DNA from: Anabaena sp. UHCC 0187
Lineage (GTDB): Bacteria > Cyanobacteriota > Cyanobacteriia > Cyanobacteriales > Nostocaceae
Length of the DNA stretch: 46,142 bases
Assembly: GCF_009712035.1 (NCBI RefSeq)
Contig: NZ_VILB01000012.1
Coordinates: 1 to 46,142, forward strand
Direction of reading: 5' to 3'
Part shown: in pieces, positions 2,848 to 23,798 of the stretch
How positions within the stretch are numbered: position 1 is the first letter of the stretch
Layout of the letters: every line of letters starts with the position of its first letter
Made by a program: the position numbers and the translations under genes
Notes under the pieces: generated by a model
Databases searched by the model: none
Seen by the model: the letters and a program-made list of their open reading frames with translations, nothing else
What the model was told of the DNA's origin: nothing

Positions 2848-2893
2848 AAGACATTCCGCAATTGTAACTGATTTAAGTGATTATTTGAAGTGA

Positions 2894-4000: not shown

Positions 4001-4038
4001 TTTGTTTGTGATTAGTAGATATTAATTTTGATAACTTG

Positions 4039-5316
4039 TCAATTTTTGGATTTTAAATTATTTGAGATTACCTCCTCAATAATATCCACAGCACGAGGAA
4101 CACCTCCTGCCTTTTGAATAGCCGTTTTTAGTCTGAGTGCATTTTCTTGATAAGATGGTTGCGTTAAGACTTCTTGAATAGCTTGACGTAATCTCCTAGT
4201 TGTTAACCGGGAAGTAGTAATAAATTGTCCTACACCACTCCAAGCAATACGAGAAGCAACTCCTGGGTGGTCATTAGTAATAGGAATAGTCACCATAGGT
4301 ACACCATAAAAAAGAGATTCTAACACTGTATTTGTCCCAGCATGGCAAATAGTCAGACTAGCTTTTTGCAATAATTCTAATTGTGGTGCATATTTGACAA
4401 CAATAGGATTTCCCGGTAAATTTGGCAATGCTTGAGTTTCTAATCCACCTCCCAAGGCAATTACTAATTGTGCATCTAAACCTACACAAGCTTCAGCAAT
4501 TTTATAGAAAATATGGGTGAGACGATTTTGTAATGTCCCCATTGAAGCATAAATTAAGGGTTGTCCATTCAATTTTTCAAATGGAAAATCAATTGGTTTT
4601 CTAACTGTTGCATCAAAGTGGGGACCAGTAAAATGGAGTATCCCTTCTAAATTAGTTCTTGGGTACTCAAACTCTGCTGGTTGTTGACTAATAATTGCTA
4701 ATTTAGAAACAGAATAGAAATCGTTAATATTCACACAAGGAGGCATATTACACTCCCGGCGATATGCTGAAATCACCTTGTAAATAGGTTGAGCAAAAGT
4801 ACAAATTAGCCCATAACCAACACGATTACGTAATCTTGCCCACAAAACTGGTTTATATTGCCAAGTGGTGAAAGCTGGCGGAATAGTATCATTAAAACCG
4901 TTGACTAAAGCGGAAGAAGCCGTAACAAAGGGAATATTTAGTAAGTCGGCAACAGTGCTTCCTCCGAATATACATTCATCAATTATCAGTGCTTCTATTC
5001 CCGCATCTTTAATCACTTGTGGGGCATCACGCAAAAATAAATCTGTTGTTTTTTCAGATAAAGAAATTGTGTAACGCAATGCTGCCAAACCTGTTAGTTT
5101 GCCTAGTTGTTCATAAAATTTTGCTGTTGTGCCTAGGGGAAAATCAACTGGTGAAATAGGTTGAAATTCTAAGCCAGCAGCTTTGGCATTTGCTTCTGCA
5201 TCAGACATACCTAATACTGTAACACGATGCCCTCGCCTTTGGAGTTCACGTCCTAAAGCAGTCATTGTGTTTAAATGTCCAGTAGCAGCTGGGCAGATAG
5301 TACCGAAGTGTGTCAT
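4039..5316 (-). CDS. GT1-family UDP-glycosyltransferase (MGT/CrtX-like)
   Basis: A 425-residue GT-B glycosyltransferase. The N-terminus (THFGTICPAATGHLNTMTAL) is typical of the macrolide/zeaxanthin glucosyltransferase group. The C-terminal donor-binding region shows VKYAPQLELLQKASLTICHAG, then TNTVLESLFYGVPMVTIP. This is the UDPGT signature, with the His and Gly residues that contact the nucleotide sugar. The length is normal. Members glycosylate small hydrophobic acceptors such as carotenoids, sterols or polyketides. Carotenoid or glycolipid glycosylation is plausible in a cyanobacterium but cannot be assigned. It is co-directional with the methyltransferase gene downstream and the FkbM-type gene upstream. 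Confidence 0.85.
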   Translation of the reverse strand: MTHFGTICPAATGHLNTMTALGRELQRRGHRVTVLGMSDAEANAKAAGLEFQPISPVDFPLGTTAKFYEQLGKLTGLAALRYTISLSEKTTDLFLRDAPQVIKDAGIEALIIDECIFGGSTVADLLNIPFVTASSALVNGFNDTIPPAFTTWQYKPVLWARLRNRVGYGLICTFAQPIYKVISAYRRECNMPPCVNINDFYSVSKLAIISQQPAEFEYPRTNLEGILHFTGPHFDATVRKPIDFPFEKLNGQPLIYASMGTLQNRLTHIFYKIAEACVGLDAQLVIALGGGLETQALPNLPGNPIVVKYAPQLELLQKASLTICHAGTNTVLESLFYGVPMVTIPITNDHPGVASRIAWSGVGQFITTSRLTTRRLRQAIQEVLTQPSYQENALRLKTAIQKAGGVPRAVDIIEEVISNNLKSKN

Positions 5317-5368
5317 ACTTTTTCCATTGATTTAATTATTTAAAACTATTCTTTTACTTGTACTATCT

Positions 5369-6169
5369 TCACAGACTGGCATGGGTATCATACCACGGTT
5401 CTATCACATTGAGTGCTTCTAAGAGCTTTTTACCTAGAGGAATATCATAAATAAACCCATTCAATCTAAATATTTTATAGTACCAAAAAATGCGTTTATA
5501 GAGATTGATTGCTTCACTTTCCGAAAGCCAAGTTCCTGCTGTTTCTTCTCCAAAAAGTCCGCTAGAACCAAATTCAAATTGATGTTCAATGTATTGGCCT
5601 TCTCGTGCTGGAAAGGGACACATTTGTTGTGATATTTTCTCTTGGTTAATAACTTTAAATTTCTGATAACCAAGTTCTGCCAATAGCTTGAATTCTTCCA
5701 GTAAGCTACTCCAAGAAGTTTTATCTGATTCTATGGATATAAACTGTGGTTTACTGTCAAAGTGCCGTAATGCTTCTACGCACAACATATCTGCACCTTC
5801 TATATCTATTTTCAGATAGTAGGGAATACCAAATTCTTGCAAAATGGTTTCAAATTTAGAACCTTTTACAGTGATTCCTAGGGATTTTGTCCCAAATACC
5901 TCGTTTCTCTTCACCCAATCTTGAGAAATTGTCCCCCAAACACTTATGTCTAAATTAGTATAAAAGGTAATGTCGCCATCTTGTGGGGCTATGGCCAGAT
6001 TAAGAAGTTGCAGTTGACCATCATTTATATAAGATTGTAGTCGCTTTTTTGTAGTTTCATAAAGCTGAGGATCAGCTTCTATACCCACTACTCGAAAACC
6101 TTTTTTTAAATAGTATTCAGTGTCTTCACCCAAATGAACACCAACATCAATTATTAAATTTTTATCCAT
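5369..6169 (-). CDS. FkbM-family methyltransferase
   Basis: A 266-residue protein matching the FkbM methyltransferase family. Motif I is NLIIDVGVHLGEDTEYY at residues 4-20, and VVGIEADPQLYE follows as the acidic SAM-ribose loop. The segment YYLKIDIEGADMLCVEAL, near residue 120, is the diagnostic FkbM motif. The family methylates hydroxyl groups of sugars and polyketides. It is the most upstream gene of the minus-strand run that continues through GT1, methyltransferase and GT2, so it may open that operon. The region between it and the LD-carboxypeptidase gene is short and shows no clear terminator. The substrate is unknown. Confidence 0.82.
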   Translation of the reverse strand: MDKNLIIDVGVHLGEDTEYYLKKGFRVVGIEADPQLYETTKKRLQSYINDGQLQLLNLAIAPQDGDITFYTNLDISVWGTISQDWVKRNEVFGTKSLGITVKGSKFETILQEFGIPYYLKIDIEGADMLCVEALRHFDSKPQFISIESDKTSWSSLLEEFKLLAELGYQKFKVINQEKISQQMCPFPAREGQYIEHQFEFGSSGLFGEETAGTWLSESEAINLYKRIFWYYKIFRLNGFIYDIPLGKKLLEALNVIEPWYDTHASL

Positions 6170-10062: not shown

Positions 10063-10156
10063 ATAGGGGCAGAAGTTTGAGAACCTCCACCCCATTTTTT
10101 AGCAACCTCTATCTATGTGGTTTGAGTCAAAGCTGAAGCAGTTACGCTGTTCGTTC

Positions 10157-12952
10157 CTACTCAGGGCTTTTTCCTTGGGCAGTATAAGCTCCATGTTGTT
10201 GGATTAGTTTTGCTACTACTCCTGTCCAACCTGTTTGATGACTAGCTCCAATTCCCGCACCGTTATCCCCATGAAAATATTCATAGAAGAGAATGTAATT
10301 ATTCCAGTTGGGGTCATCTTGAAACTTTTTAGTTCCTCCATAAACAGGTCGCTCACATTGACCTTCTGTTTTTGGCAAGAAAATATTAATCAATCTTTGA
10401 GAAAGTTCTGTAGACACTTCCCAGAGATTCATCATCTTTCCTGAACCAGTAGGATATTCTACTTTGAAATCATCTCCTAAATAACGATGAAATTTTTGGA
10501 GTGATTCAATAATCAAGAAATTCACAGGCATCCAAACCGGACCACGCCAATTGGAATTGCCACCAAATAGACCAAATCTCGATTCTCCTGGCTCGTATTC
10601 TACTAAAGGTTGCTCGAAACTACCATCTTCCATTCTGATTTTAAAAGGCAAGAGATAAGGATGGGGTGGCTCGTGGGATTTAGATAAAGCTCGAATGCCA
10701 TAAGGTCCTAAAAATTCAGATTCATCGAGCATTCTTTTGAGAATTAATTTGAGTCTTTCAGGGTTGACTAGGGATAAAGCTAACCCTCCTCCCATCAAAT
10801 TACTATCTGTTTTATCAAAGTAAATGTTCTCGTTTTTTGTCAAGTCCTGACGATGCTTTAAAAACCAATCAGCCCTTTTTCTGAAGTCAGAAGACAAATA
10901 TTTGTCTAATGTTTCTTGATCGATTGCTTCCACTGCAAATAGAGGAATAAGTCCTACCATAGAACGGACTTTCATCGAGAAAGAAAAGGGATCATTTCCT
11001 CCGTCTATGACATTAGCAGGAAGTTTCAAAATGTCATAGAAAAAGCCATCTTTATCATCCCAAACATCAACTTCATTTCCTCCCAGTTTGTTCAGAGCTT
11101 CGGCAATCAACAAAAAATGCTGGAAGTATTTGGAGGCCATATCGTCATAAACTGTTGAATTTGTATGGCTTTTAGCTAACTCTGTTGCCATCTTCAACAA
11201 GTTAAGACAAAACATTCCCATCCAACTAGTACCATCTGATTGCTCAATACTAGCACCAGCAATTTTCAAATTACTGCGATCAAAAACCCCAATATTATCT
11301 AGACCCAGGAAACCGCCTCCAAACAGATTGTTTCCATCTACATCTTTACGATTTATCCACCAAGTAAAGTAGAGAGACAATTTCTGAAATAGTTGTTCGA
11401 GGAATCCTGCATCTGCATTGCCATACATTTTCTCTTCTATTTTATAAACCCGCCAAGCTGCCCAGGCATGAACTGGAGGATTTACGTCACTAAAGTTCCA
11501 CTCATAGGCTGGTATTTGACCGTTAGGGTGCATAAACCATTCTCTGGTGAAGAGATATAATTGCTTTTTCGCAAATTCTGGGTCAATTAAGGCTAGAGGG
11601 ATGGTGTGAAATGCCAAGTCCCAAGCAGCAAACCAAGGATATTCCCATTTGTCAGGCATGGAGATGATATCTTCGTTAAACAGGTGAGTCCACTCACTGT
11701 TTCTACCAGAGTTTTTGCGTTGCGCTGGTGGTGGTGCGCCTGGGTCTCCATTGATCCAATCTTGCACAACATAGTGGAAAAATTGCTTACTCCATAACAT
11801 CCCTGCAAAGGCTTGTCGTTGGACGTTACGCATTTCAACTGGTAATTCTTCGCTGGGGGTGACTGCTTGATAGAATTGATCCGCCTCATTTTTGCGTTGT
11901 TCAAATACTGACCCAAATTCATTACCAAAGGGTGTTGCTAAATCGTCAATATCACTGAGGCGGAGTCGGACGATTTTGGTTTCCCCTGGGGCAAAATTTA
12001 AGCGATAATGGGGTGAAACTTTGGTTCCTTGTTGATGAGGATTTACTGCACCAGTTTGACCATTAACAATATAATCGTTAATGCCATCTTTGACGTAAGA
12101 GGTATTTTTTCCCCATCCAAACTTTTCTTTATTGGTTTCGTTTTCCGTATACAGCATGGCATTGGGGGTTTGGCAATAAAGCCATTTCTTGACCTCCGGT
12201 TGCGCTGATTTCAAGTCGGTAAATTCAGCTTTAACTACCTTAAAATCTCCACTAGAGTTAACGCTTTCCAGGGAGGGTTTACCTTCCTCTGTGGCTCCCC
12301 AAGACCAAGTGTTACGAAACCAAAGAGTCGGTGCTAGATGCAACTCTTTAGCTTCTGGACCATGATTAACAACCGTGATTTGAATCAAGATATCTTCGGG
12401 AGAATTTTTGGCATATTCGACGAAAACATCAAAATAGCGGTTATCGTCAAATATCCCTGTATCCATCAACTCAAATTCAAATGCGCGAGCATCTTGGGCT
12501 TTGCGGCGACCATTTTCTTTGATCAATTGTTCATAGGGAAAGGCATTATGGGGATATTTGTACAGCCCTTTCATGTAAGAGTGGGTGGGGGTACTATCCA
12601 AATAAAAGTAATACTCTTTGACATCTTCCCCGTGATTTCCCTCACTATTGGTTAATCCAAATAGCCTTTCTTTGAGGATGGCATCTTTTCCATTCCAGAG
12701 AGCGATCGCAAAACAAAGACGTTGGTGATTATCAGAAATCCCCATAATCCCATCCTCACCCCAGCGATAGGTACGGGAACGAGATTGATCATGGGAAAAA
12801 TAGTCCCAAGCGTTACCATCAGCACTATAATCTTCTCGCACTGTTCCCCATTGGCGATCGCTTAAATAAGGACCCCACTGTTTCCAGTGTTTCTCCCGGT
12901 TGCTATCTTCAACCAGTCTTTTTCTTTCGGCTGTGTCTTGAATTTTGATCAT
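10157..12952 (-). CDS. GH63-like glucosidase (MGH1-type glycoside hydrolase)
   Basis: A 931-residue protein of the cyanobacterial/actinobacterial glucosidase group related to GH63 and mannosylglycerate hydrolase. The N-terminal half is a beta-sandwich-like region beginning [19 protein letters not shown]. The C-terminal half is an (alpha/alpha)6 barrel. Candidate acidic residues are the Asp of [14 protein letters not shown] and the Glu of the [13 protein letters not shown] segment near the C-terminus. There is no signal peptide, so it acts in the cytoplasm, releasing glucose or a related sugar from a small glycoside. It is the last gene of the ten-gene minus-strand unit, 63 bases after the DyP peroxidase gene. 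The exact substrate is unknown. Confidence 0.82.
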
Positions 12953-13015
12953 GGCTTTTTACGATTTCATAAATGAACTGTTGGCAATCATGGTCTTAAT
13001 TCGCTAGAGAAATCT

Positions 13016-14449
13016 CTAATCTAAACTCGTCAGAAAACTAATACTAGGAGCGAAGAAATATTCTCCACCTTTCATTTTCACCCATAGCTCAAAATGATAC
13101 TCCTTAGTTTCCTTTTCACCCCATTTTGTTGGCCATTTTGATATGACGTTTCTTGGATCATCTTTTGGTCTTCCGGGCTGACCAATTACCGGATCAAGTC
13201 CTACTCCAACGTCAACAAAACGATCAGGATTTGCCCATCTCGATTGCATAAAATTGAATTGGTTTTCAATATCTGCTTGGAAACAAAGAAACAATAATCC
13301 TGAACCCTCTGTCGGTTTTGCAGTGGGATCATGTTCTCCATAACTAACTGCCCGTCGGGCAATTCGATGATTTCTCTCTATCCTTAAAGCTTCATCAAAT
13401 TCAGGAGCAGATTCAACTCGTCCTGTATCACCACGTGGGTTTGTTTTGCGAATATGGGCATGAAATGGACATTTTGTAGCTGCTACATCCTCATCATAAT
13501 TAAAGTTATTAGTTGGGGTGACAGCATAGGTAGGAATATCTGACTTAGTAACGGGAGTTCCATCCGCAAAACGACCCATAACTAAAGCCCCTGCCAAATC
13601 ATTTTTGATGTTTAAAGTTTTAGCAAGTTGTTGTTGATCTTCATGAAATGCTTTAACATTTTGTTCGAGCTTTCGGTAAACTAAATAGCTACCATAACTA
13701 TCCTCAGTTTTCCCATTATAATCTTTAACGAGAATGATATCTAAAGAAGCTCTGGGATCCCATTGACTGAAATTGCAATCGTTGGTTTGCGCTCCCACAA
13801 TATCTCGTTTGATAAATAAAGGCTGACTTACCCCATCAACAAACCCAAAATGTTCAATTATTTGTCCGGCTTTATTTCTAAGAATAAAGCCATCTTCTCG
13901 ATGAATAATTACAGCAACTTGACGCAGACTTTGAGAAACCTGATTGACGGTTTGCAATAAATTGATCAAGTTATCGTCAGCAATTAATAGTAAAGCATGG
14001 ATCTCTTTTTGAAATCCGGCTTCCCAGTCTTTAACCTCCGGATCTTTTAAAAAATCTTGTCTGATTTGCTCATTTTTCATCCCCATGGTAAAGGGCTGAT
14101 CTTTCGGAACTTGAAAAGGCTTAAATCCTAAAGCTTCATAACCATGACGAGTTAGTAAAAAGTTAGCAAAAACCTTCCCAGTAATGCCTTCTTGCCGGTA
14201 GCGTAAAGCCTCATCTGCTTGTTGTTTAGCTGATGTTACATAACAGTTAGCAAAGGTTTGTATCCAGTTCTTAGCTTCCGCAACTTTTTCCGATTTCCAT
14301 TCTAAAAAGAGATGCACACTGTAATCTCGTCCATGTCCTTTTAAAATATTTCCTTGTAAGTCTTCCAGGAGTCCTTGATACTTGCCCGCATTTTCTGGAT
14401 CAATTCCAGTTTCTGGAACATTTTTTAAGTCTTCTTCTGTTAATGCCAC
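13016..14449 (-). CDS. DyP-type heme peroxidase
   Basis: A 477-residue dye-decolorising peroxidase of the long class. The defining GFVDG motif is at 202-206, with catalytic Asp205. The CPFHAHIRKTNPRGD region gives the likely proximal heme ligand His332, and the RIERNHRIARRAVSYG segment supplies conserved arginines on the distal side. LLFLCFQADIENQF and QSRWANP complete the family pattern. It would reduce hydrogen peroxide while oxidising an organic substrate. No signal peptide is present, so it is probably cytoplasmic unless exported with a partner. It starts 28 bases after the copper radical oxidase stop, so translation of the two is probably coupled; that oxidase family makes hydrogen peroxide. 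Confidence 0.93.
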   Translation of the reverse strand: MALTEEDLKNVPETGIDPENAGKYQGLLEDLQGNILKGHGRDYSVHLFLEWKSEKVAEAKNWIQTFANCYVTSAKQQADEALRYRQEGITGKVFANFLLTRHGYEALGFKPFQVPKDQPFTMGMKNEQIRQDFLKDPEVKDWEAGFQKEIHALLLIADDNLINLLQTVNQVSQSLRQVAVIIHREDGFILRNKAGQIIEHFGFVDGVSQPLFIKRDIVGAQTNDCNFSQWDPRASLDIILVKDYNGKTEDSYGSYLVYRKLEQNVKAFHEDQQQLAKTLNIKNDLAGALVMGRFADGTPVTKSDIPTYAVTPTNNFNYDEDVAATKCPFHAHIRKTNPRGDTGRVESAPEFDEALRIERNHRIARRAVSYGEHDPTAKPTEGSGLLFLCFQADIENQFNFMQSRWANPDRFVDVGVGLDPVIGQPGRPKDDPRNVISKWPTKWGEKETKEYHFELWVKMKGGEYFFAPSISFLTSLD

Positions 14450-14477
14450 AAAATTCTACCTTTTTGATGACTGTTTT

Positions 14478-16424
14478 TTATCCAGCTTGAAGTTTGATAA
14501 TTTTGGCTTTGGCAGGTTTGCCTACGTCATTAAGATAAAACATCATGTAGTATCCAGGAGGATAGAGATTTGCGTTATTAGGTGCTGTAAATTCCACTAA
14601 TGAACTATCATCTGAAACTTCGATGGGCAACTCTACTAACCGTTGTCCATAATCAAAGGAATGGGTAACGGACCCCAGCTTGGCAAGTACCAGCGATGGG
14701 TTTTTAGTGCCATTTTCTACCCTAATTGTGCCTGGTTGTCCATATTCAAGAGTGTCAGGAGCTTGATTGATTTGAGGGCGATCGCCTGATTTAAAGAGAT
14801 AGGGAGGACTGAAAATTTCTCCTTGCCAAATTTCCGCCGGCACAAAGGGTTCAGAATCTCCTTCGGCGTAATAATGTTGCGGATCTTTGTAAAAGGTGTC
14901 AATATCAAATTCTTCAGGTTTTCCTGATTGATTTTGCAGCTTGGCAAAGGTAAAAAATGTTTGCGGATCGCCAAGAACATCCACACGCACTGTACCGTCT
15001 TTTTTGAGTGCGGCTCGATTGGCATTTCCACCCACAACTAATACACGGGCATCCGGTAGTAAAACAGCCCCATTATGGTACAGTCTGGGGAATTTGCCAC
15101 GGTTTAAGGACTTGGTTCTATAACCTGCTGTTGCTTTTTCATCTGGGGTCATGAGCAAGGGTTCGTAAACTGGCTGATATTCGGGATATCGTCCCCCATT
15201 AATCACTAAAATTTCTTTGGTGGGCAAAATGACGGCTTGGAGGTTAGCTCTGGGTTTATCCAGGAAATGGTCAAATATTTCCCATTTACCAATCTTGTTA
15301 CCAATTTTTTCTGGTGGAATCCAATGTTGTAAACTGCTGGCTATCCTGACCTCTTTGGGAAATCCTGCTGTACTACCACCCCGGCCAAAACTGATACTGT
15401 TCGTACCAATAATACCACCTAATAAAATGACATCTTCGGAATTAGGGACTTGTAGAGCGGTTCCGTAGGCTTTGTTGGTTTCTAAGCGATCTGGTCCTAC
15501 TTCAAAACTAATGGAAATATTGCCATTATCTACTTCCTGAATGCTCATTAAATAGCTTTTTTTACTGAAATGGGGAACTGAAACTCCGGCAATACCGGCT
15601 TCGTCTCCTGTAATCAGTAATCTGCCATCTTTTAAAGGAAAAACACGGGGATAAAGGTCAATGCTATCGTAAACGTCCTCACCTTCTACTTTGGTGTTGA
15701 AGGGACTGTTTTCGATTAGTCTGGGGTCAAAGTATTGAAGTTTCTCCGTTTTGGGATCATAAATTTCAATACTGGGGTTAATTTGGTTGGGTTTATCCCA
15801 TTTTAAACCCGAAAAAATCACCACTTTCCCACTAGCTAGGGGAATTAAACTTGGATACCAACGTCCATCTTTTGTCTCTCCAATAGCCTTCCATTCTCCT
15901 GTTTGCCATTTATACAGGTTAATCTGCTTGCTGCCGGTAAAAGCTCCACCTGGGTAATAACGTCCTGTTCCCCCGATGAATAGGACATTACCATCGGCTA
16001 ACTGGACATGACCCAGACAAAAGAGATCGTTTGTTGTCCCATTTTGTGAAGCTGGAGGTGAGGGAATACGTTCAAATTTTCCTGTTGCGGGGTCAAGTAA
16101 ACCTGTATTATTGATGGCATTGTAGTTTTTCGGATCTACACCTTCTTTAAACTTATATTGTCCATCTTCTTCAATGAGGGTGCTACGAAAACTACTACCA
16201 TTGACCATTAAAACTTTGCCATTCGGTAGCACAATGGTATGGACAGACTGCATCCGATCTTCTGTCGGTGGCATGGGTATGGTTGTCCATGCTCCCATGG
16301 TTTCTTGGGTCCCGGCCGCTATAGCTACATCCCAACCTAAAAATGTTAGGCATAAGGACAGGAAAAACACCAAAAAAACTGAGACAATCTTGATGCCTTT
16401 GGGTAATGGTTGAACTATCTTCAT
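14478..16424 (-). CDS. exported copper radical oxidase (galactose oxidase/glyoxal oxidase-like)
   Basis: A 648-residue protein with an N-terminal signal sequence (hydrophobic residues about 13-37, cleavage near AIAAG), Kelch-type repeats and a C-terminal DUF1929-like domain. All cofactor residues of galactose oxidase have counterparts: Cys136 (LFCLGHV) and Tyr190 (GRWYPSL) for the Cys-Tyr crosslink, Tyr449-His450 (PRLYHNGAVLLPD) and His588 (GSVTHSF) for copper. It should therefore be an active enzyme oxidising a primary alcohol or aldehyde with O2 and releasing H2O2, acting outside the cytoplasm. Galactose itself is not implied, since family members differ widely in substrate. It sits between the second TIM-barrel gene and the DyP peroxidase gene. 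Confidence 0.88.
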   Translation of the reverse strand: MKIVQPLPKGIKIVSVFLVFFLSLCLTFLGWDVAIAAGTQETMGAWTTIPMPPTEDRMQSVHTIVLPNGKVLMVNGSSFRSTLIEEDGQYKFKEGVDPKNYNAINNTGLLDPATGKFERIPSPPASQNGTTNDLFCLGHVQLADGNVLFIGGTGRYYPGGAFTGSKQINLYKWQTGEWKAIGETKDGRWYPSLIPLASGKVVIFSGLKWDKPNQINPSIEIYDPKTEKLQYFDPRLIENSPFNTKVEGEDVYDSIDLYPRVFPLKDGRLLITGDEAGIAGVSVPHFSKKSYLMSIQEVDNGNISISFEVGPDRLETNKAYGTALQVPNSEDVILLGGIIGTNSISFGRGGSTAGFPKEVRIASSLQHWIPPEKIGNKIGKWEIFDHFLDKPRANLQAVILPTKEILVINGGRYPEYQPVYEPLLMTPDEKATAGYRTKSLNRGKFPRLYHNGAVLLPDARVLVVGGNANRAALKKDGTVRVDVLGDPQTFFTFAKLQNQSGKPEEFDIDTFYKDPQHYYAEGDSEPFVPAEIWQGEIFSPPYLFKSGDRPQINQAPDTLEYGQPGTIRVENGTKNPSLVLAKLGSVTHSFDYGQRLVELPIEVSDDSSLVEFTAPNNANLYPPGYYMMFYLNDVGKPAKAKIIKLQAG

Positions 16425-16483
16425 AATGAAGTATCTGCGTCAGAATTTATGGTCGTGGTCAATCGTTATTTCTCTAAGGAAAT

Positions 16484-17509
16484 TTAGTAATCCTGAACAG
16501 TTTGTTGAATTTTTTGAATTTTTTGAATTTCCTGTTTAGTTACTTTGATAGCTTCATTTGCAATATCGTAGGCACTAGGATAGCAATTAGCTTCATCTTC
16601 CCCTGGTATCCAAAACTTGCGTCGAGTCAGACGCAGAGAGTTGACAAACGCAGGAATAGCATTGAAAATTTCCACAGCAATTGGTCCGGTGTATACTTCC
16701 AAAACTGGTTGGAGAAAGGGCTGCCAGGGTAGCCAACTGGTATGAAGTGCGCCACGATCAGGGGGTGAAACTTGAATGTAATGTAGCCGGTTTTCTTGGG
16801 CTAAATAGGTAACTTGTTCTTGGAACTTTTCTGGGCCATCTCCATCCAATATTTCGTGGGCGCTATCAATTACAACCCCCACTTGTTTACTTTCCACACC
16901 TTTGAGAAAGTCAATTAATTGAGATAACTTATTTGGTCCAGGAGTTTCCCAATGAGTAATAGGTTCAATTGCTAATTTGACGTTTTTTCCTTCAGCATAT
17001 TTACCCAATTCATTGAGAATCGGTTGAGCATTTTGATAACGCACAGATAAATGATCCTGTATTTGATCGCTCCAAATCGGATCATTAAAGTCTGTGGTTG
17101 GAAAAACACCATAGGGAATGACAATAGGCCCCATCATAATCTCACCCCCTAAAGCCGCCGTAATATCAACTCTTGATTTCAGATATTCTAGGGCTTCTTG
17201 TCTTTGTTTTGGATAGGGAGAACTAGGATCAAAAGTTCTGGTTGCTCCAACATTGGTGGATATTTTAATATCTGCTAAACCCTCGCAATCAAGATAGTGG
17301 CGTAAATCTTGATAATTTGCCAAATCTTGGGAATAATTTGCAGGATTGGTTAAAGCAATGGGAAATTCAAAGCCAGTATAACCAAATTTCTTCAGTTCTT
17401 TTATATGTGCTACTACAGTTTTCCGATATTCTAAATTATCGGGTTTTAAATCTGTAGTAAACATGAAAAAGCTCAGGTAAATATTAGGCAAAGATGATGA
17501 TTTGTTCAT
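16484..17509 (-). CDS. sugar isomerase/epimerase-like TIM-barrel protein
   Basis: A 341-residue xylose-isomerase-like TIM barrel of the sugar phosphate isomerase/epimerase superfamily. Candidate metal ligands are the Glu of KLAIEPITHWE, the Asp and His of GVVIDSAHE and the Glu of GPIAVEIFNAIP, in the spacing of D-tagatose 3-epimerase relatives. I place the start at the ATG at 17509 because the upstream in-frame start is a TTG and a GGA lies about 9 bases before the ATG. There is no signal peptide. The C-terminal tail (QEIQKIQKIQQ) is partly coded by a 9-base microsatellite. It follows the SnoaL-like gene by about 75 bases. Substrate unknown; a keto-sugar is plausible from context. Confidence 0.82.
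   Translation of the reverse strand: MNKSSSLPNIYLSFFMFTTDLKPDNLEYRKTVVAHIKELKKFGYTGFEFPIALTNPANYSQDLANYQDLRHYLDCEGLADIKISTNVGATRTFDPSSPYPKQRQEALEYLKSRVDITAALGGEIMMGPIVIPYGVFPTTDFNDPIWSDQIQDHLSVRYQNAQPILNELGKYAEGKNVKLAIEPITHWETPGPNKLSQLIDFLKGVESKQVGVVIDSAHEILDGDGPEKFQEQVTYLAQENRLHYIQVSPPDRGALHTSWLPWQPFLQPVLEVYTGPIAVEIFNAIPAFVNSLRLTRRKFWIPGEDEANCYPSAYDIANEAIKVTKQEIQKIQKIQQTVQDY
16505..16531. repeat. 9-bp microsatellite in the 3' end of the TIM-barrel gene
   Basis: Three successive copies of a 9-base unit (GAATTTTTT on the plus strand) code for the repeated QKIQKIQ-type tail of the isomerase-like protein. The tail lies outside the expected TIM barrel and is probably variable in length between strains. 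Confidence 0.75.
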
Positions 17510-17583
17510 TTTATTATGTTCCAAAAAGAATCTCAGTAAATTTGAATTACGGTACGATATTTTCCCTAATATCTCTGGAGAGA

Positions 17584-17976
17584 TTATAAGGGTTTTCTGT
17601 TCCAGATTTGACGGTCAATTTTCCAAATACCTGCATCTTTTTTCATTAGCCATAAAGCCCGAAATTTTACTTGTTTTGAAGGACTACCATCATGAGAATA
17701 AATAGTTGCCATAGAGATACCAATGACATAACCAAAATCACCCATCACTTCAATTTCATCTGCTGTAAAAATTGGATCAATATCTTGGGTTGCAATACTT
17801 TGGGCAAATCCTTCTACAATATCTGCCCTACCACAGCGATCATCTACATCCGGTGCCATCCAAAGTGCATCTTCGGTATACATATCACTATAACCATCAA
17901 GATTTCTAGTTCTCACATTCTCGGCATAGGTTTCTTCAAACACTTTTCTGATTTCATCTTTATCGCGAGAATACAT
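17584..17976 (-). CDS. SnoaL-like/DUF4440 small protein
   Basis: A 130-residue protein with the NTF2-like cone fold of the SgcJ/EcaC (DUF4440) group. It has an N-terminal helix (IRKVFEETYAENVRTRNLDG), then YSDMYTEDALWMAPD, and ends with the strand pair ALWLMKKDAGIWKIDRQIWN. The fold is used by isomerases, cyclases, dehydratases and non-catalytic binding proteins, so the family name does not fix a reaction. TAGGAG lies 7 bases before the ATG. It is flanked by two TIM-barrel sugar isomerase-like genes on the same strand, which suggests a shared substrate or a small partner subunit; that is inference. Confidence 0.8.
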   Translation of the reverse strand: MYSRDKDEIRKVFEETYAENVRTRNLDGYSDMYTEDALWMAPDVDDRCGRADIVEGFAQSIATQDIDPIFTADEIEVMGDFGYVIGISMATIYSHDGSPSKQVKFRALWLMKKDAGIWKIDRQIWNRKPL

Positions 17977-18049
17977 ATCTAAACTCCTAAGAATTGTTAT
18001 TGCGTTGTGCAGAAATGGTCGTATTGGGCATGAAAATTTACTATTTAAT

Positions 18050-18093
18050 ATTTACCAAAAGTCTGTAGATAAAATCTCCGACTTTTAGTAAAT
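18050..18093 (-). terminator. inverted repeat after the IolE-like gene (possible attenuator/terminator)
   Basis: A 14-base arm (ATTTACCAAAAGTC) and its complement (GACTTTTAGTAAAT, one mismatch) are separated by 16 bases, just past the stop of the IolE-like gene and before the SnoaL-like gene. There is no U tract after it on the minus strand, so it may stabilise or attenuate the transcript rather than end it. Confidence 0.4.
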
Positions 18094-18099
18094 AAAAAA

Positions 18100-19215
18100 T
18101 TACAACCCAGTCACCTTACGGAGATAATCTCGTGCTAGAAGAGCATATTCTAAAGGCTCACGTAAAGGCTTAATTTTGGTATTGCTGGGATCTTGTTCTG
18201 CTTCTACCATTAACCAGCCTTGATACTTAACTTCGGCTAGTTTATTTAAAATGGTCTTAAAGTCAATGATGCCATTTTTATCCCCAGGAACTGTAAAAAC
18301 TCCAGAGCGAATTGCACTTAAAAAGCTGAGTTGCTTTTGTTTTGCTTCGTCCAAGATATTTTGACGAATATTTTTGAGGTGAACGTGCTTAATCCGGCTA
18401 CCATAGGTGCTAATCAGATCCAAAATTCCATCTTGGGTAACACCTGAATAGTAAAGATGTCCAGTATCAAGTAGTAGGTTCACATTGTGATCCTTTGTTC
18501 CTGTCATGAGACGATCAATATCTGCGGGGGTTTCTACTCCGGTGCCGACGTGGGGATGGTAAGACAAGATCATGCCATTGGCAAAGGCTTGATCTCCCAG
18601 AGAATTTAAGCCATCAATCAAGAGTTTCCATTGTTCATCAGTAAACTGGGGACGATTATTTAAAGGTTCAATGGGTTGTTGATGGACAGCCCCTCCGAGT
18701 TCGGCAACGACAATTGCTTTACTCTCAAAATTCTTCATGAACGCCATCTGATCCTCGAATATTTTTTGGCTATCTTCTTTCGCTCCGATGGTGAAGAAAG
18801 TCCCAACCCAGGGTTCAGAAATTGTTAAACCCCGAACTTCTAGGTCTTTTTTTAATGTAGCGATGTCTTTGGGAAATTTAGGAGCGCCTTGAAGACCTTT
18901 AAACCCTGCTAGGGAAATTTCACTGATAATCTGTTTGTAGGAGATGGGAGGATTGAGATCCATTGTGAGATCATCACTGTTGCTCCAACCTGTAGGGGTA
19001 ATACCTAAACGGACTTCTTCAGGGTTGAAAATAGGGGTTTTAGCACCACTTCTGACTTCAGCATTGGCAGGAAGTGTGGTAGTGATTCCCATGAGAATCA
19101 CAATCAATAGGGAAATCAATAAACGACTGATTTGTTGATTCAGGGATTTTATTCCGCTGGGAAAATTCGCAAGAATCTGTACTTGTTGTTTGATTTTTTC
19201 GGAGCTTGGTGTCAT
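18100..19215 (-). CDS. exported IolE-like TIM-barrel sugar isomerase/dehydratase
   Basis: A 371-residue xylose-isomerase-like TIM barrel closest in pattern to inosose dehydratase IolE: LGITPTGWSN near the barrel start, then SYHPHVGTGVETPADIDRLM. The NLLLDTGHLYYSG and IKHVHLKNI segments follow. Candidate metal ligands are Glu172 (VVAELGG), Asp250, His279 and Glu338 (LMVEAEQ). The ATG at 19215 is chosen over a TTG ten codons earlier because AAGGA lies 5 bases before it. Residues 30-52 form a hydrophobic segment ending LPANA, a clear signal peptide, which is unusual since IolE proteins are cytoplasmic. It would act on a keto-sugar or keto-cyclitol outside the cytoplasm; the substrate is unproven. 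Confidence 0.82.
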   Translation of the reverse strand: MTPSSEKIKQQVQILANFPSGIKSLNQQISRLLISLLIVILMGITTTLPANAEVRSGAKTPIFNPEEVRLGITPTGWSNSDDLTMDLNPPISYKQIISEISLAGFKGLQGAPKFPKDIATLKKDLEVRGLTISEPWVGTFFTIGAKEDSQKIFEDQMAFMKNFESKAIVVAELGGAVHQQPIEPLNNRPQFTDEQWKLLIDGLNSLGDQAFANGMILSYHPHVGTGVETPADIDRLMTGTKDHNVNLLLDTGHLYYSGVTQDGILDLISTYGSRIKHVHLKNIRQNILDEAKQKQLSFLSAIRSGVFTVPGDKNGIIDFKTILNKLAEVKYQGWLMVEAEQDPSNTKIKPLREPLEYALLARDYLRKVTGL

Positions 19216-19298
19216 GAGAATCCTTGAGTTTTTTACTTTCAACAATTTGATTTGTTTTATTTAGGAGCGAACCACTTTTGTCTCATGTTGCAGTGGTT

Positions 19299-19429
19299 TA
19301 TAGCAATCCTATTTGATTTGTAGACTTTGAATAGTGAACAAATAGGATCAGTAATTTACTCAGGTGAGCATACTCAAAATCTGAATTATTTACGCTCCAT
19401 TTGTTAGCTCATCAAATAGGATTGCTATA
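19299..19429. mobile_element. 131-bp MITE-like element with 19-bp perfect terminal inverted repeats
   Basis: The termini are TATAGCAATCCTATTTGAT at 19299-19317 and its exact complement at 19411-19429. Both ends carry TA, as expected for an element mobilised by an IS630/Tc1-type transposase into a TA target. The interior codes for nothing recognisable. It sits between the pentapeptide-repeat gene and the IolE-like gene and accounts for most of the largest gap in the ten-gene unit. Confidence 0.65.
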
Positions 19430-19481
19430 CCAGAGGGAGTTTTGTAACTATCTCTTTGCTGACGATATGTTAAATATGAGC

Positions 19482-20162
19482 CTATTGAATAGCCCCAAAC
19501 TGACCGACACTTCCGTTATATATTGTGTCATTAGGCATTCTGGCACGAAACAAATCAGCATCAATGAATTTAGTCTGTGTCAGAGTAGCTTTTGATAATC
19601 TGACATTTCTCAGGACAGCATCAGAAAAATCTGCACCATCTAACGTAGAGGTAGATAAAAATGCGTTGGTGAAATTTGCTTCTTTGGCGATCGCATTGGA
19701 CAAATCTGCACCAGAGGCGATCGCATATTCTAGATTAGCCTCTGTGAGATTAGCCCCCGACAAGTTTACCCCTGCCATCTCTGCATTAGCCAATTGGGCA
19801 TTTGTGAGATTGGCGTTAGTTAAATTGGCTCTGTTTAACCTGATTCCTAAAAGGCTGGAACCCGATAGATTCGCTCCTGTGAGAATAGCGTCATCTAGCT
19901 TAGCTTCATTCAGTAAACTGTTCGACAAATTAGCCCCTGTGAGATTTGCTCCAATGAGTGCGCTACCATACAAATCTTTACCGGATAAATCCATTCCCGA
20001 AAGATTACAGCTATTACACTCGTTTGTCTCCAGTAAATGAGTAAGAGCAACACGGGGACTACTAGCAACGAAGGCATTAGCAGGTAAACTAAACAGCGTT
20101 ACACTCAGAACAATTGTCAGGACAAAAGCAGAAAGTCCCCGAAACCAAAGTTTAATATTCAT
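19482..20162 (-). CDS. exported pentapeptide-repeat protein
   Basis: A 226-residue protein. A signal peptide covers residues 1-31 (hydrophobic core then LPANA), so the mature protein should be in the periplasm or thylakoid lumen. After a short segment with CNSCNLSG, about 30 pentapeptide repeats of the A(D/N)LXX type run to residue 210 and would form a right-handed quadrilateral beta-helix. Such proteins are abundant in cyanobacteria and mostly of unknown role. Gyrase mimicry, known for cytoplasmic members, is unlikely for an exported one. It lies 44 bases after the dehydrogenase small-subunit gene and the MITE-like element follows it. Confidence 0.88.
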   Translation of the reverse strand: MNIKLWFRGLSAFVLTIVLSVTLFSLPANAFVASSPRVALTHLLETNECNSCNLSGMDLSGKDLYGSALIGANLTGANLSNSLLNEAKLDDAILTGANLSGSSLLGIRLNRANLTNANLTNAQLANAEMAGVNLSGANLTEANLEYAIASGADLSNAIAKEANFTNAFLSTSTLDGADFSDAVLRNVRLSKATLTQTKFIDADLFRARMPNDTIYNGSVGQFGAIQ

Positions 20163-20206
20163 CTTGTATCTCCATTAAAATTGTTCACCAGATCATCAAA
20201 TTGTCA

Positions 20207-20695
20207 TTAACTCAAACTAACTGAAGGAGGCTCACTCCAAGTCCCATAACCAGGTGCTTTCGCGCCAGGAGGATTAACCCCAACAGCCCGCCAGACAAGT
20301 CCTTCGGGATAGGATTGAGGACTGGGAATAAAATGGCTATTTTCTTTACCTGCACCATACCAGGCCTCCCATGCGTCGGGAAGTTCATACCAATTAGCCG
20401 TGTACCATAGTTTAATGATGTTGCGAGCAACAGGTCCACGTTTTGAAGAGTCTAGAATTTGAGAGCGTAGTCCCTCGCTTAAAATTACGGGGTCATATTT
20501 CTTTTTTGCTCTCTTATCTAGATCATGAAAGATTGTTAGCAATTCCCCAAATATGTCTTCACCAACCATCTTCAGAACGGTGTCAAAGTAAAGTTCAGTT
20601 TGTCCAGTTCCTTCCAGATCAAACCGAGAAAATCCTGTAACCTCTGCCGAAAAATCCAGGAAATACCCCATGAATTCAGGTGTCTTAATACTCAC
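20207..20695 (-). CDS. sorbitol/fructose dehydrogenase-type small subunit (FAD-SLDH family)
   Basis: A 162-residue protein that I match by pattern to the small subunit of membrane-bound FAD sorbitol/fructose dehydrogenases. It has an N-terminal helical region (FLDFSAEVTGFSRFDLEGTG), then IIKLWYTANW (93-102), EGLVWRAVG (131-139) and GYGTWSEPP (149-157). In Gluconobacter-type enzymes this subunit binds the GMC flavoprotein and carries a twin-arginine signal. Here the signal is absent. The start is a GTG with GGAGG 10 bases upstream. The GMC gene is in the same unit, separated by the ferritin-like gene, so a two-subunit enzyme is likely. The family call rests on remembered motifs and needs an HMM check. 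Confidence 0.65.
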   Translation of the reverse strand: MSIKTPEFMGYFLDFSAEVTGFSRFDLEGTGQTELYFDTVLKMVGEDIFGELLTIFHDLDKRAKKKYDPVILSEGLRSQILDSSKRGPVARNIIKLWYTANWYELPDAWEAWYGAGKENSHFIPSPQSYPEGLVWRAVGVNPPGAKAPGYGTWSEPPSVSLS

Positions 20696-20762
20696 TAGTT
20701 ATTTACCTCCACAAAATTTCTAGGTTCTTATTTCTAGGTTTTTGAGTTTCAACTTTTGCTAT

Positions 20763-21875
20763 TTACTCAAACTTATAAATTGGACCTGCATTAACTCCAT
20801 TCAGTCCCGGAATAGGGTTACGAATCAGACTAGTAGCCAATTCCTTGAGTCGGAACATACTTCCCACCGCAGGAAGCAACTGCTCAGGATAACCATTAAA
20901 GGAATGCTCAATCTCTGCAAGGAATCTGCTGTAAGCTTGCTGGAACTCTAGTGCGTGAGCATATAATTCTGAATCTGCGTCACAATAACTTCTGAGTTTA
21001 CTCAGCGTCAGATTATCCATCACGGGATAAACAGCGTCCCAATCTACAGTAAAGGTTTCACCTGTAGGCTGATTAGGATCATCTGAGTTCGTTGGATCTT
21101 CCTTGTCTATCACATAGTAGCGACCCTTCAGAAGTTGCTGGAAACGATAGTAATGAGAAAGTTCTTTTTCAGAATCATAGATCGTTGTACTTCCAGACCC
21201 TTCACCTTGGGTTTGAATTATATACAATGCTTTGATAGCAGAGTTAAGATCCGTCACCTTGACGATATCTCCCGCACCATCATAGTAATATTCAGGGGTA
21301 ATTTGCTTTTTGGGATCACCAATAAAGAGATTCTTACCTTCATTCTTATACTTCCTATCAAGTGCCTTTAAGCCTCTAATCACCTCTGTATAGAATAATC
21401 CAATGGTGTCGTAGCTTAAGTTATCCTTTTTACCAGCAAGTTTTAAAAAACTGTGTCTTCTTGTTTGTTTAGTGCGAGACTCTACTAATGCTTTATTTTC
21501 ACCTACATGATGAGAACGTTCAATCTTGCAAAATGTCTCTACTGTTTCTTTGGAAAACTTGCCGACATTAACTTCAAAGTCTTCTGCTCCTGTGGGTAAG
21601 TGAGTCGGGTATGTGGGAACAAAGTCAGGATTGGTCAAAACTCCTTGAATATTTCCTCCCACCGCATTAAACACATTGGCTACTAGAGTCAGATGAAGCA
21701 TTTCCTCTACAGCGACGGTGCGAATAAAGTGGAAAGCTTCCAGATTTGAGCCTGGCTTCAGGGAATAAAGGGCAGTCAGATAAGGGGGAAGAGTCGCGTG
21801 TTCTATCATCAAGCCCTGGATGAGATAGTAATGCAGGTCTTCAACCGTTGTAATCAACTCTAAACTATCAATCAT
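20763..21875 (-). CDS. ferritin-like protein of the VioB/iminophenylpyruvate dimer synthase family
   Basis: A 370-residue protein with a ferritin-like domain. The first helices show MIEHATLPPYLTALYSL (Glu25) and RTVAVEEMLHLTLVANVFNAVGG-type sequence with Glu58 and His61, the expected di-iron or heme-interacting pattern. A later LAEIEHSFNG segment could supply a second set. The family includes domains of VioB, RebD and StaD, which couple oxidised amino acids made by a flavoenzyme. It also has many uncharacterised relatives next to oxidoreductases. The ATG at 21875 follows an in-frame TTG, with AGAGG just upstream. It lies between the GMC dehydrogenase gene and the small-subunit gene, so it probably works with them. 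Confidence 0.75.
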   Translation of the reverse strand: MIDSLELITTVEDLHYYLIQGLMIEHATLPPYLTALYSLKPGSNLEAFHFIRTVAVEEMLHLTLVANVFNAVGGNIQGVLTNPDFVPTYPTHLPTGAEDFEVNVGKFSKETVETFCKIERSHHVGENKALVESRTKQTRRHSFLKLAGKKDNLSYDTIGLFYTEVIRGLKALDRKYKNEGKNLFIGDPKKQITPEYYYDGAGDIVKVTDLNSAIKALYIIQTQGEGSGSTTIYDSEKELSHYYRFQQLLKGRYYVIDKEDPTNSDDPNQPTGETFTVDWDAVYPVMDNLTLSKLRSYCDADSELYAHALEFQQAYSRFLAEIEHSFNGYPEQLLPAVGSMFRLKELATSLIRNPIPGLNGVNAGPIYKFE

Positions 21876-21941
21876 CAAATACCTCTGCTGATAATATTTT
21901 CAAAAAGTTGTATAATTCAGTGCGCTTTGTTGTTTCCAATC

Positions 21942-23798
21942 CTAAAGATTTGCCGGCTTAGACGCAATATCTAAATCCCGAAGCATCTCTTCAGCAGCCA
22001 TGAAAGTTAGAGCGGCGATACTCAATGTAGTATTGGAACTACCAATGGAGGGCATACTTCCTGCACCAACCATATAGAGATTCTGATGATCCCAAGAACG
22101 CATATATTTATCCACAACTGAGTTGTATTTAGTCGTTCCCATGACGTGAGTTCCTGAAAAGTGATTTCCTCCTCGAAACCAGTAGCCTTCACCCTCATAC
22201 TCAAAATAGGCAGGGTCTGTGTCATCGTAGTGGGTATGATCTTCCGCACCTAAATGATTGAAAATGGTCTTGGAGAGATTTCGGGCGTAAGCAAAGGTTT
22301 TTTTGCAATAATCGGGTAGGTCAAAATGAATGACGGGACGATAATTACCCAATTGATCTGTATATCGAGGATCAATGGTGACTCGGTTGTTGGAATCGGC
22401 GGGTAATTCGCACATGAAGGCTAATAGTAACTGCCGTGATATCTTGCTAATCAGTTCTTGACGTAGTTCAGAACCATACAGATTCCCCTTTTCTACAGCA
22501 TCTCTTACCACGTCAGTAGCACCTGTTCCTGACCATCCCCAACCATCATTATGGATATCCATAGCAAATGTGCATTGGTTGTGACGAAACTTACCTTTAC
22601 GGAAAGTCCCAATTCCTGATGTCACTAAGGGGCCTCGCATTGTGCCAGTTACTTCCGGCATCAAAGCCCAAGCTAAGAGAAAAGGATGATCCATGAGGTT
22701 GCGTCCCATCAAATCATTGCTACTCTTCAAATCGGAAGCAAGCATCAGTTTGGCATTTTCGACTGCATGGGCAGCTAGGACAAATAAAGTACCTTGAGCT
22801 ATACCAACGGTATGATCAGGAGAGTTCTTATCTTGATAGTGCTTGTAGTGAATAGCGGTAACACGACCGTTATCGGGATTAACTTCTACCTTATAGGCTA
22901 CAGCCTGGGCAAGTAGGTCTACTCGATCAGGAAAAGCTATGGTATTTAAGGTTTTGCGGGCATCATACTTTGCTTGCACTGGACAGATAGGAACACAGTT
23001 CGCGTTACCTTGGCAGCGTTCCCCATACTCCACAGGCTTAACACTAGCAACTCCATCAGGAACGAAGCGAATATCAGCTTTATGCCCATACTCGTTATAA
23101 TCAGGATTAGGGATACTATTGCGACCCTGGGGAAATGTACTGAGTTCTAATTTAATAGTCTCGCCTTCAAGTTCGACGGTAGCTCCATTCAGTCCCTCGG
23201 TAACTTTTTTATCCAAGTAAGAAGGAGGAAGCTCAAGCATAGGGAAGACATAGCCATCTTTAAAGGGGACACCTAGACTTTTTTGTCCTTCTACGTCTCC
23301 AGAAACCCCCATTTCATACTCCGCTTGGCGGTAGTAAGGCATCAGTTCTTCATACTTAATCGGCCAGTCAAGACCTTTTCCATATTTAGTTTGTAACTCA
23401 AAATCTTCGGGTAACATTCGGATGGTTTTCCCTTCCCAGTGCATGGTAGTTCCACCCAATACCCTTGTATAAGAACCGCTAAGAGGTAATGGTCCTTTTT
23501 CTTCAAAATAATGATTAGCTCCATCAGTAGGGCTAAGGGCATTACGGTTTACGGGATAAGGGGAGTTGGCGTTTTTGTCTACTGCACCATAAAAGGTATC
23601 AACGTGACTTTGAAAGCCCTCAAGGGTTAAACCATGACCAGTTCCCGCTTCCAGAATTAGAACTCGCTTGCCCTGTTCACTGAGTTGTTTGGCAACAATG
23701 GCTCCAGCTACTCCCGCTCCGACTATGACTACATCGTATAAGGTTTGAGAAACAGTCTCACAATTGACGAATGTTACTTTAGTCCGACTTTGGCTCAT
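21942..23798 (-). CDS. GMC-family FAD dehydrogenase with a 3Fe-4S cysteine motif
   Basis: A 618-residue GMC oxidoreductase. The dinucleotide-binding motif is GAGVAG at 27-32, and ILEAG closes the Rossmann fold. The catalytic pair is His546 (NHFSGT) and Asn589 (SSNTTLSIAAL). Cys262, Cys268 and Cys272 form C-X5-C-X3-C (RCQGNANCVPIC), the spacing that binds a 3Fe-4S cluster in bacterial FAD-glucose and fructose dehydrogenases. It should therefore be a dehydrogenase passing electrons onward, not an oxidase. No signal peptide is present. AAGGAG lies 6 bases before the ATG. It is the first gene of the ten-gene unit. No cytochrome c subunit is nearby, so the electron acceptor is unknown. Confidence 0.9.
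   Translation of the reverse strand: MSQSRTKVTFVNCETVSQTLYDVVIVGAGVAGAIVAKQLSEQGKRVLILEAGTGHGLTLEGFQSHVDTFYGAVDKNANSPYPVNRNALSPTDGANHYFEEKGPLPLSGSYTRVLGGTTMHWEGKTIRMLPEDFELQTKYGKGLDWPIKYEELMPYYRQAEYEMGVSGDVEGQKSLGVPFKDGYVFPMLELPPSYLDKKVTEGLNGATVELEGETIKLELSTFPQGRNSIPNPDYNEYGHKADIRFVPDGVASVKPVEYGERCQGNANCVPICPVQAKYDARKTLNTIAFPDRVDLLAQAVAYKVEVNPDNGRVTAIHYKHYQDKNSPDHTVGIAQGTLFVLAAHAVENAKLMLASDLKSSNDLMGRNLMDHPFLLAWALMPEVTGTMRGPLVTSGIGTFRKGKFRHNQCTFAMDIHNDGWGWSGTGATDVVRDAVEKGNLYGSELRQELISKISRQLLLAFMCELPADSNNRVTIDPRYTDQLGNYRPVIHFDLPDYCKKTFAYARNLSKTIFNHLGAEDHTHYDDTDPAYFEYEGEGYWFRGGNHFSGTHVMGTTKYNSVVDKYMRSWDHQNLYMVGAGSMPSIGSSNTTLSIAALTFMAAEEMLRDLDIASKPANL

Follow-up and report, generated by a model that had tools for sequence, protein, structure and literature searches.

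Among the described systems closest to the gene cluster considered here are the fructose dehydrogenase (FDH) of Gluconobacter and the FAD-dependent glucose dehydrogenase (FAD-GDH) of Burkholderia; as pathways, inositol catabolism, the cortalcerone route of fungi and an oxidation-elimination-hydration route of Agrobacterium come nearest. The cluster is a run of ten minus-strand genes, from position 23798 down to 10157, on contig NZ_VILB01000012.1 of the cyanobacterium Anabaena sp. UHCC 0187; the window is that whole contig, 46,142 bases of a 5.1 Mb genome whose nearest relative is a same-genus genome deposited as an uncultured cyanobacterium. From 5' to 3' the genes encode a GMC flavoprotein (GMC), a ferritin-like protein (FER), a dehydrogenase small subunit (SSU), a pentapeptide-repeat protein, an IolE-like protein, a SnoaL-like protein, a second TIM barrel of the 2qw5 family (TIM2), a copper radical oxidase (CRO), a DyP-type peroxidase (DyP) and a GH63-like glucosidase.

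Several parts of the run have published counterparts. Passages of PMC4417212 place fungal PF12902 genes beside lodA/lodB-like genes of a quinoprotein amino acid oxidase system, and passages of PMC4736821 describe Streptomyces GlxA making H2O2 that is used by the DyP peroxidase DtpA, without a strong physical interaction or a boost in rate. The Agrobacterium OGE/HYD route combines oxidation with lyase and hydratase enzymes annotated as sugar phosphate isomerases (available text of PMC10628242), and excerpts of PMC11650716 cite the fungal glucose-to-cortalcerone route and report a cyanobacterial pyranose oxidase, OPOx, of 534 aa. A first-pass annotation of this DNA had noted no described system with this combination, and searches of an open-access library aimed at the set found no description, subscription papers being mostly outside their reach. 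We know of no pathway with this enzyme set.

Very distant bacteria share the core of the run in similar order, a pattern that suggests an uncharacterised route of sugar oxidation followed by dehydration. Tentatively, and at a little less than an even chance, we read the locus as a conserved, patchy and probably horizontally moving sugar-oxidation cluster whose pathway leads from a glucosidase through GMC/SSU, FER and the IolE-like protein to TIM2.

Distribution and gene order of the cluster

The open reading frame table bears out ten neighbouring genes, with intergenic gaps of 63, 67, 44, 236, 123, 59, 59, 28 and 63 bases in the 5' to 3' direction; the spacing given earlier as mostly 28-123 bases thus holds, with a single exception at the pentapeptide/IolE-like junction (19246-19481). 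In a survey of 244 cyanobacterial genomes, GMC, SSU, FER and TIM2 (at E limits of 1e-30, 1e-3, 1e-15 and 1e-40 respectively) each occur in the identical five, and the core is present in two of nine same-genus genomes, the Anabaena genome itself included. The cyanobacterial core is tightly co-occurring and patchily spread. All five genomes also carry the pentapeptide, IolE-like, SnoaL, CRO and DyP genes beside GMC, SSU, FER and TIM2; in three of them the GH63-like gene adjoins the core, and in the remaining two a GH15 gene does. The single-contig genome G022 (L015:14361-17979) has a GMC match spanning residues 227-616 only and a pentapeptide gene matched as two overlapping pieces, and judging from these matches its cluster looks decayed.

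Turning beyond the cyanobacteria, named genomes were scanned as well and yielded 19 loci, including one in a Verrucomicrobiales metagenome-assembled genome (MAG), where GMC and FER run up to the contig end, and one in Streptomyces sp. Ru71. Plasmid collection records with a match number 214 for GMC, 161 for FER, 108 for SSU and 98 for TIM2, counts made at E-value limits that differ between the four, and are mostly rhizobial for the last three. The order GH15-GMC-FER-SSU-IolE-TIM2-MBL-TPP, the last being a thiamine pyrophosphate (TPP) enzyme, is common to Rhizobium K102 and Rhizobium etli CFN 42 (L048, L061) and Sinorhizobium meliloti M162 (L053). The same eight genes stand in the same order in Streptomyces sp. 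Ru71 (L036, by tblastn), which has two GH15 genes, one on the opposite strand and one directly upstream of GMC under an antisense open reading frame; Pseudoalteromonas has these eight genes too, three of them on the other strand, and the Persicobacter order is GMC-FER-SSU-AUDH-GDE-GH63-IolE, AUDH being aldos-2-ulose dehydratase. GMC and FER are less than 400 bases apart in 26 of the 30 loci showing both. The set is reduced to SSU-GMC-FER within 8 kb in Ruegeria, and two rhizobial plasmids carry GMC fragments beside FER. This recurrence in largely the same order in distant bacteria makes the gene run more than chance.

Some loci carry further genes. A second SSU-GMC pair lies between the GH15 and first GMC genes in Agrobacterium larrymoorei (L049:9648-11893) and Pararhizobium (L056:4649-6887), and the Pseudoalteromonas cluster is bordered by a Tet-type MFS gene. 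Just upstream of the cluster on two Rhizobium plasmids, R. etli CFN 42 p42f being one, lie genes for LuxR and an acyl-homoserine-lactone synthase (L048:8188-9708, L061:3485-5010).

The first-pass annotation had treated the ten genes as one operon and asked for a conserved neighbourhood in other genomes. Such a neighbourhood is found, strongly, for GMC, FER, SSU, the IolE-like gene and TIM2. An indivisible ten-gene unit is rejected, since the CRO-DyP pair also occurs apart from the core and GH63-like homologues are widespread (47/244 cyanobacterial genomes). The run consists of a core and, more loosely attached, two modules: CRO-DyP and the GH63-like gene.

The predicted dehydrogenase and its ferritin-like neighbour

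GMC (21942..23798, 618 aa; PF05199/PF00732, the former at 1.6e-15) is the probable catalytic subunit of an FAD/[3Fe-4S] sugar dehydrogenase. Its best Protein Data Bank (PDB) matches are glucose dehydrogenase 6a2u (E 2.2e-71) and the large subunit of fructose dehydrogenase 7w2j (E 3.1e-59), and it aligns with 6a2u over a C-x5-C-x3-C motif. C262, C268, C272, H546 and N589 are identical in all 30 rows covering 90% of the protein, and we take the three cysteines to be ligands of the [3Fe-4S] cluster. Pyranose 2-oxidase was considered and rejected as an identity for GMC, which scores 47.7 against the TIGR02462 cut-off of 544.9 and so also differs from the enzyme of the fungal pyranose 2-oxidase/AUDH system; OPOx, in the passages of PMC11650716 that describe it, is shorter at 534 aa.

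SSU (20207..20695, 162 aa) has no Pfam match in the window protein itself, yet a structure model gives it the fold of the fructose dehydrogenase small subunit and supports its earlier designation as a probable small subunit. GMC with its motif and SSU with its fold thus resemble FDH and FAD-GDH. The cluster differs from both in having a ferritin-like gene in place of a cytochrome c gene near the core: no CXXCH frame of at least 80 codons lay 2 kb or less from the core, either in the window between 8 and 26 kb or in 30 of 32 stretches (L017 and L114 counting as one place), the search covering these stretches and not whole genomes. Two doubtful CXXCH matches came up, a 109-codon frame in L056 and a 405-codon frame in L021, the latter a TnpB-like gene by its length and strand. 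Hydropathy gives a further difference, the window SSU having no signal-peptide-like N-terminus, whereas the small subunit of FDH is reportedly exported.

FER (20763..21878, 371 aa), the usual neighbour of GMC and a probable diiron protein, matches PF12902 at 8.6e-68 and has a conserved set of E and H residues. The domain links it to VioB/RebD-type enzymes, which couple imines of aromatic keto acids into dimers, VioB presumably carrying the same ferritin-like domain. The fungal PF12902-lodA/lodB arrangement is similar in that a ferritin-like gene adjoins an oxidoreductase pair; it differs in belonging to a quinoprotein amino acid oxidase system, and GMC goes unmentioned in the available text of PMC4417212.

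Barrel enzymes, glucosidases and the copper oxidase-peroxidase pair

The families named in the first-pass annotation were recovered with Pfam and NCBIfam models, and one assignment was sharpened. Both barrel proteins carry the AP_endonuc_2 domain (3.4e-26 and 4.3e-27), and the IolE-like protein (18100..19245, 381 aa), a xylose-isomerase-like TIM barrel, passes the IolE model TIGR04379 with 308.1 bits against a cut-off of 290. Its PDB matches are IolE 9zmu (5.5e-58) and 3cny (4.3e-51), with a weak match to the 2-hydroxy-3-keto-glucal hydratase 8ro4 (5.7e-6). With one barrel an IolE-type dehydratase, a combination of dehydration and isomerisation describes the chemistry better than the sugar rearrangement proposed earlier. 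In a tree of 24 cluster rows (two being the same Streptomyces copy) and six from iol neighbourhoods, with long branches flagged, the cluster copies are split from the latter by a 100/98 branch; they retain the residues common to the six iol-neighbourhood proteins and differ fixedly at three positions.

TIM2 (16484..17524, 346 aa; PF01261 3.4e-26) is a probable isomerase or epimerase, also xylose-isomerase-like, that matches 2qw5 at E 3e-182 and epimerases at 4e-7 and weaker; 2qw5 is named in the PDB merely as a xylose isomerase-like TIM barrel. The pentapeptide-repeat protein (19482..20162, 226 aa; PF00805 1.1e-35) has a signal-peptide-like N-terminus by hydropathy. It is fused with the IolE-like protein in one plus-strand frame in a Symploca MAG (L026:15669-17264) and in Moorena (L027:17577-19166), which argues that both proteins work together. 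Between the IolE-like gene and that of the DUF4440/SnoaL-like protein (17584..17976, 130 aa; PF14534 2e-15), two Pseudanabaena loci carry a multicopper oxidase-like gene (L028:11722-13395, L032:16001-17680).

The GH63-like/MGH1-like glucosidase (10157..12952, 931 aa) matches PF22422 (8.4e-21; 75.4 against a gathering score of 27) and PF03200 (6.8e-6; 25.6 against 22.4), and a sequence search of the PDB gave no match at E 0.001. Among 32 clusters, the window and 31 other places (L017 and L114 again counting once), 18 have a GH15, GH63-like or MGH1-like gene in their neighbourhood; a CBM20 starch-binding module occurs in L016 and a debranching enzyme in L050. GH15 and GH63 enzymes are inverting and would yield beta-D-glucose. 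The recurring GH15/GH63 glucosidases point to glucose, and the substrate sugar is probably glucose cut from an alpha-glucan.

CRO (14478..16424, 648 aa) has a galactose-oxidase-like early set domain (PF09118, 2e-23) and a GlxA-type PDB match, 4unm. C136, Y190, Y449, H450 and H588 are invariant in 11 rows and, by comparison with galactose oxidase, presumably form the copper site. A PF07250 profile search of the Anabaena genome gave no match, and controls gave none either. DyP (13016..14449, 477 aa) passes TIGR01413 (107.5 against 100.5) and is close to Alr1585 (PDB 5c2i, E 2e-231). At E <= 1e-60, CRO occurs in nine and DyP in 11 of the 244 cyanobacterial genomes; DyP adjoins CRO in all nine, four of these without the core, and stands alone in two. 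The pairs without core genes are L115 (G231), L116 (G030), L117 (G151) and one in G153 (coordinates only), and G022 has a second, more distant CRO copy without a DyP match beside it. CRO-DyP is a portable two-gene module.

The adjoining CRO and DyP genes resemble the GlxA-DtpA arrangement in the passages of PMC4736821, and by this analogy the pair fits H2O2 production and use. It differs from GlxA-DtpA in that the window CRO scores 174 bits against a GlxA model cut-off of 800 and in that DyP has no signal-peptide-like N-terminus. The earlier claim of H2O2 made and consumed was wider. GMC dehydrogenases with a [3Fe-4S] cluster pass electrons onward and produce no H2O2; the window GMC groups with these, which limits the claim to the CRO-DyP pair. 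In the Gloeothece cluster, DJ-1/PfpI and VOC genes lie between CRO and DyP (L047:11102-12667), suggesting reactive dicarbonyls.

Promoter-like and terminator-like sites are no more numerous in the window than in shuffled sequence, and at this level they do not demonstrate a single transcript. The longest stem listed belongs to a terminator-like hairpin of 12 pairs (10066..10093, minus strand), which lies some 60 bases beyond the 3' end of the last gene. Elsewhere in the window, the gene for a 1692-aa WD40-repeat protein and one for a KAP P-loop NTPase overlap close to the end of the contig (39758-46092), and same-strand glycosyltransferase and methyltransferase genes, unlinked to the cluster, lie beside a solute-binding protein gene (2185-6169).

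The proposed pathway and its rivals

Gene content, order, co-occurrence, families, conserved candidate metal-site residues and the lack of a cytochrome c gene near the core are directly seen, as is, at the level of a model, the fold of SSU. In the pathway we propose, a GH15- or GH63-type alpha-glucosidase would free glucose, or a glucoside would be used directly, and a soluble dehydrogenase of GMC, with FAD and [3Fe-4S], and the FDH-type SSU would turn a ring hydroxyl into a ketone. The diiron protein FER would replace the cytochrome c subunit and take the electrons, perhaps on to O2. The IolE-like enzyme would eliminate water adjacent to the ketone, a reaction that IolE carries out on inosose; TIM2, of the 2qw5 type, would isomerise or epimerise the dehydrated product. 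In Rhizobium, Sinorhizobium, Pseudoalteromonas and Streptomyces, later steps may fall to the MBL hydrolase and to a decarboxylase-like enzyme dependent on TPP, and in cyanobacteria to the CRO and DyP pair. That glucose is the substrate, which position is oxidised, that a sugar undergoes IolE-like chemistry and that electrons flow to FER are all inferred.

A number of observations weigh against this pathway. Fourteen of the 32 clusters have no glucosidase-type gene, several of these being on short contigs; L025, L026 and L027 have the rest of the core and no glucosidase in the examined stretch (the right flanks of L026 and L027 being short), and the glucosidase-type gene of L022 is merely a rhamnosidase/MGH1-like protein. 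TIM2 is missing from 11 loci; only the genome of L023 has it, in an IolE-SnoaL-DUF4904-TIM2-CRO-DyP series that continues just past the locus end, and most of the rest are MAGs or a lone plasmid. Distant FER relatives (34% identity) in L057 and L059 have no detected GMC neighbour, and FER is thus not bound to this GMC everywhere. The best model for the cluster TPP enzyme is indolepyruvate decarboxylase, at 265 against a cut-off of 946. In cyanobacteria, hydropathy gives the IolE-like protein and CRO a signal-peptide-like N-terminus and GMC, FER, SSU, TIM2 and DyP none; a linear pathway would then span two compartments, and the GMC trio and the signal-bearing proteins may be in different ones. 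Cortalcerone formation likewise consists of GMC oxidation of glucose followed by dehydration; an AUDH-type propeller (PF22301) lies between SSU and the glucosidases in Persicobacter only, and of two Streptomyces plasmid copies the one inspected has no core genes. AUDH as a general part of the cluster is rejected, Persicobacter being the sole carrier among the surveyed loci; the search found it in none of the five core cyanobacteria, and controls were equally without a match.

The same chemistry could serve biosynthesis instead of carbon metabolism and, like the fungal cortalcerone route, yield a small secreted molecule, for example an antimicrobial or signal of the pyrone or osone type. The patchy distribution, the signal-peptide-like N-termini of the cyanobacterial IolE-like protein and CRO, the Persicobacter AUDH-type gene, the Gloeothece DJ-1 and VOC genes, which suit dicarbonyl stress, and the LuxI/LuxR-type genes upstream in R. 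etli CFN 42 and Rhizobium K102, with one helix-turn-helix gene between, all favour it. However, the core genes of seven annotated plasmid clusters include none labelled as a transporter or resistance gene, the LuxI/LuxR genes stand beside those two Rhizobium copies only and AUDH is confined to a single cluster, and we consider biosynthesis unlikely.

Less probable still is inositol-type catabolism. In this reading GMC would be the inositol dehydrogenase, the IolE-like protein would act on inosose as a true dehydratase, TIM2 would be an isomerase like IolI, and a TPP enzyme would stand in for IolD. The likeness to the iolG-iolE-iolI-iolD pathway lies in an IolE-type dehydratase that passes the equivalog cut-off and keeps the residues of iol-neighbourhood IolE, an epimerase-like barrel, a TPP enzyme in some clusters and an enzyme order parallel to dehydrogenase-dehydratase-isomerase-TPP. 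The differences are that GMC replaces IolG, the cluster IolE proteins form a separate branch, the TPP enzyme stays under the cut-off of its own best model and the glucosidases of many clusters suggest glucose. Canonical inositol catabolism is also down-weighted by IolD, which exceeds its cut-off in none of the five core cyanobacteria, where it has weaker relatives only (controls 3/14).

Oxidative glycoside cleavage, in which the two TIM barrels would carry out beta-elimination and then hydration on a 3-keto-glycoside, shares with Agrobacterium OGE/HYD and the C-glycoside eliminase pathways the logic of a dehydrogenase with two sugar-phosphate-isomerase-like proteins (available text of PMC10628242) and has the weak match to hydratase 8ro4 in its favour, but the match to IolE proper is far stronger and the hydrolytic glucosidase of many clusters would make non-hydrolytic cleavage redundant, so that we regard it as very improbable.

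Returning to the oxidation-then-dehydration route, its most specific form is a three-part cytosolic dehydrogenase in which a VioB-type diiron FER, and no cytochrome, is the dedicated electron acceptor of GMC. The complex would in effect be a sugar oxidase linked to O2, and it would feed an undescribed 'glucose-as-inosose' pathway that runs from ketone formation through IolE-type dehydration and isomerisation to steps of the TPP enzyme or the copper oxidase in cyanobacteria, rhizobia, Streptomyces, Pseudoalteromonas and Bacteroidota. We hold this in full as somewhat unlikely. More generally, the oxidation-then-dehydration route would give a function to genes now labelled 'GMC family oxidoreductase', 'ferritin-like protein', 'hypothetical protein', 'myo-inosose-2 dehydratase' and 'sugar phosphate isomerase', would make the iolE label questionable in those plasmid records, mostly rhizobial, and would provide a setting for structure 2qw5. 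If FER is the electron acceptor, it would be a new kind of partner for the dehydrogenases used in glucose and fructose biosensors.

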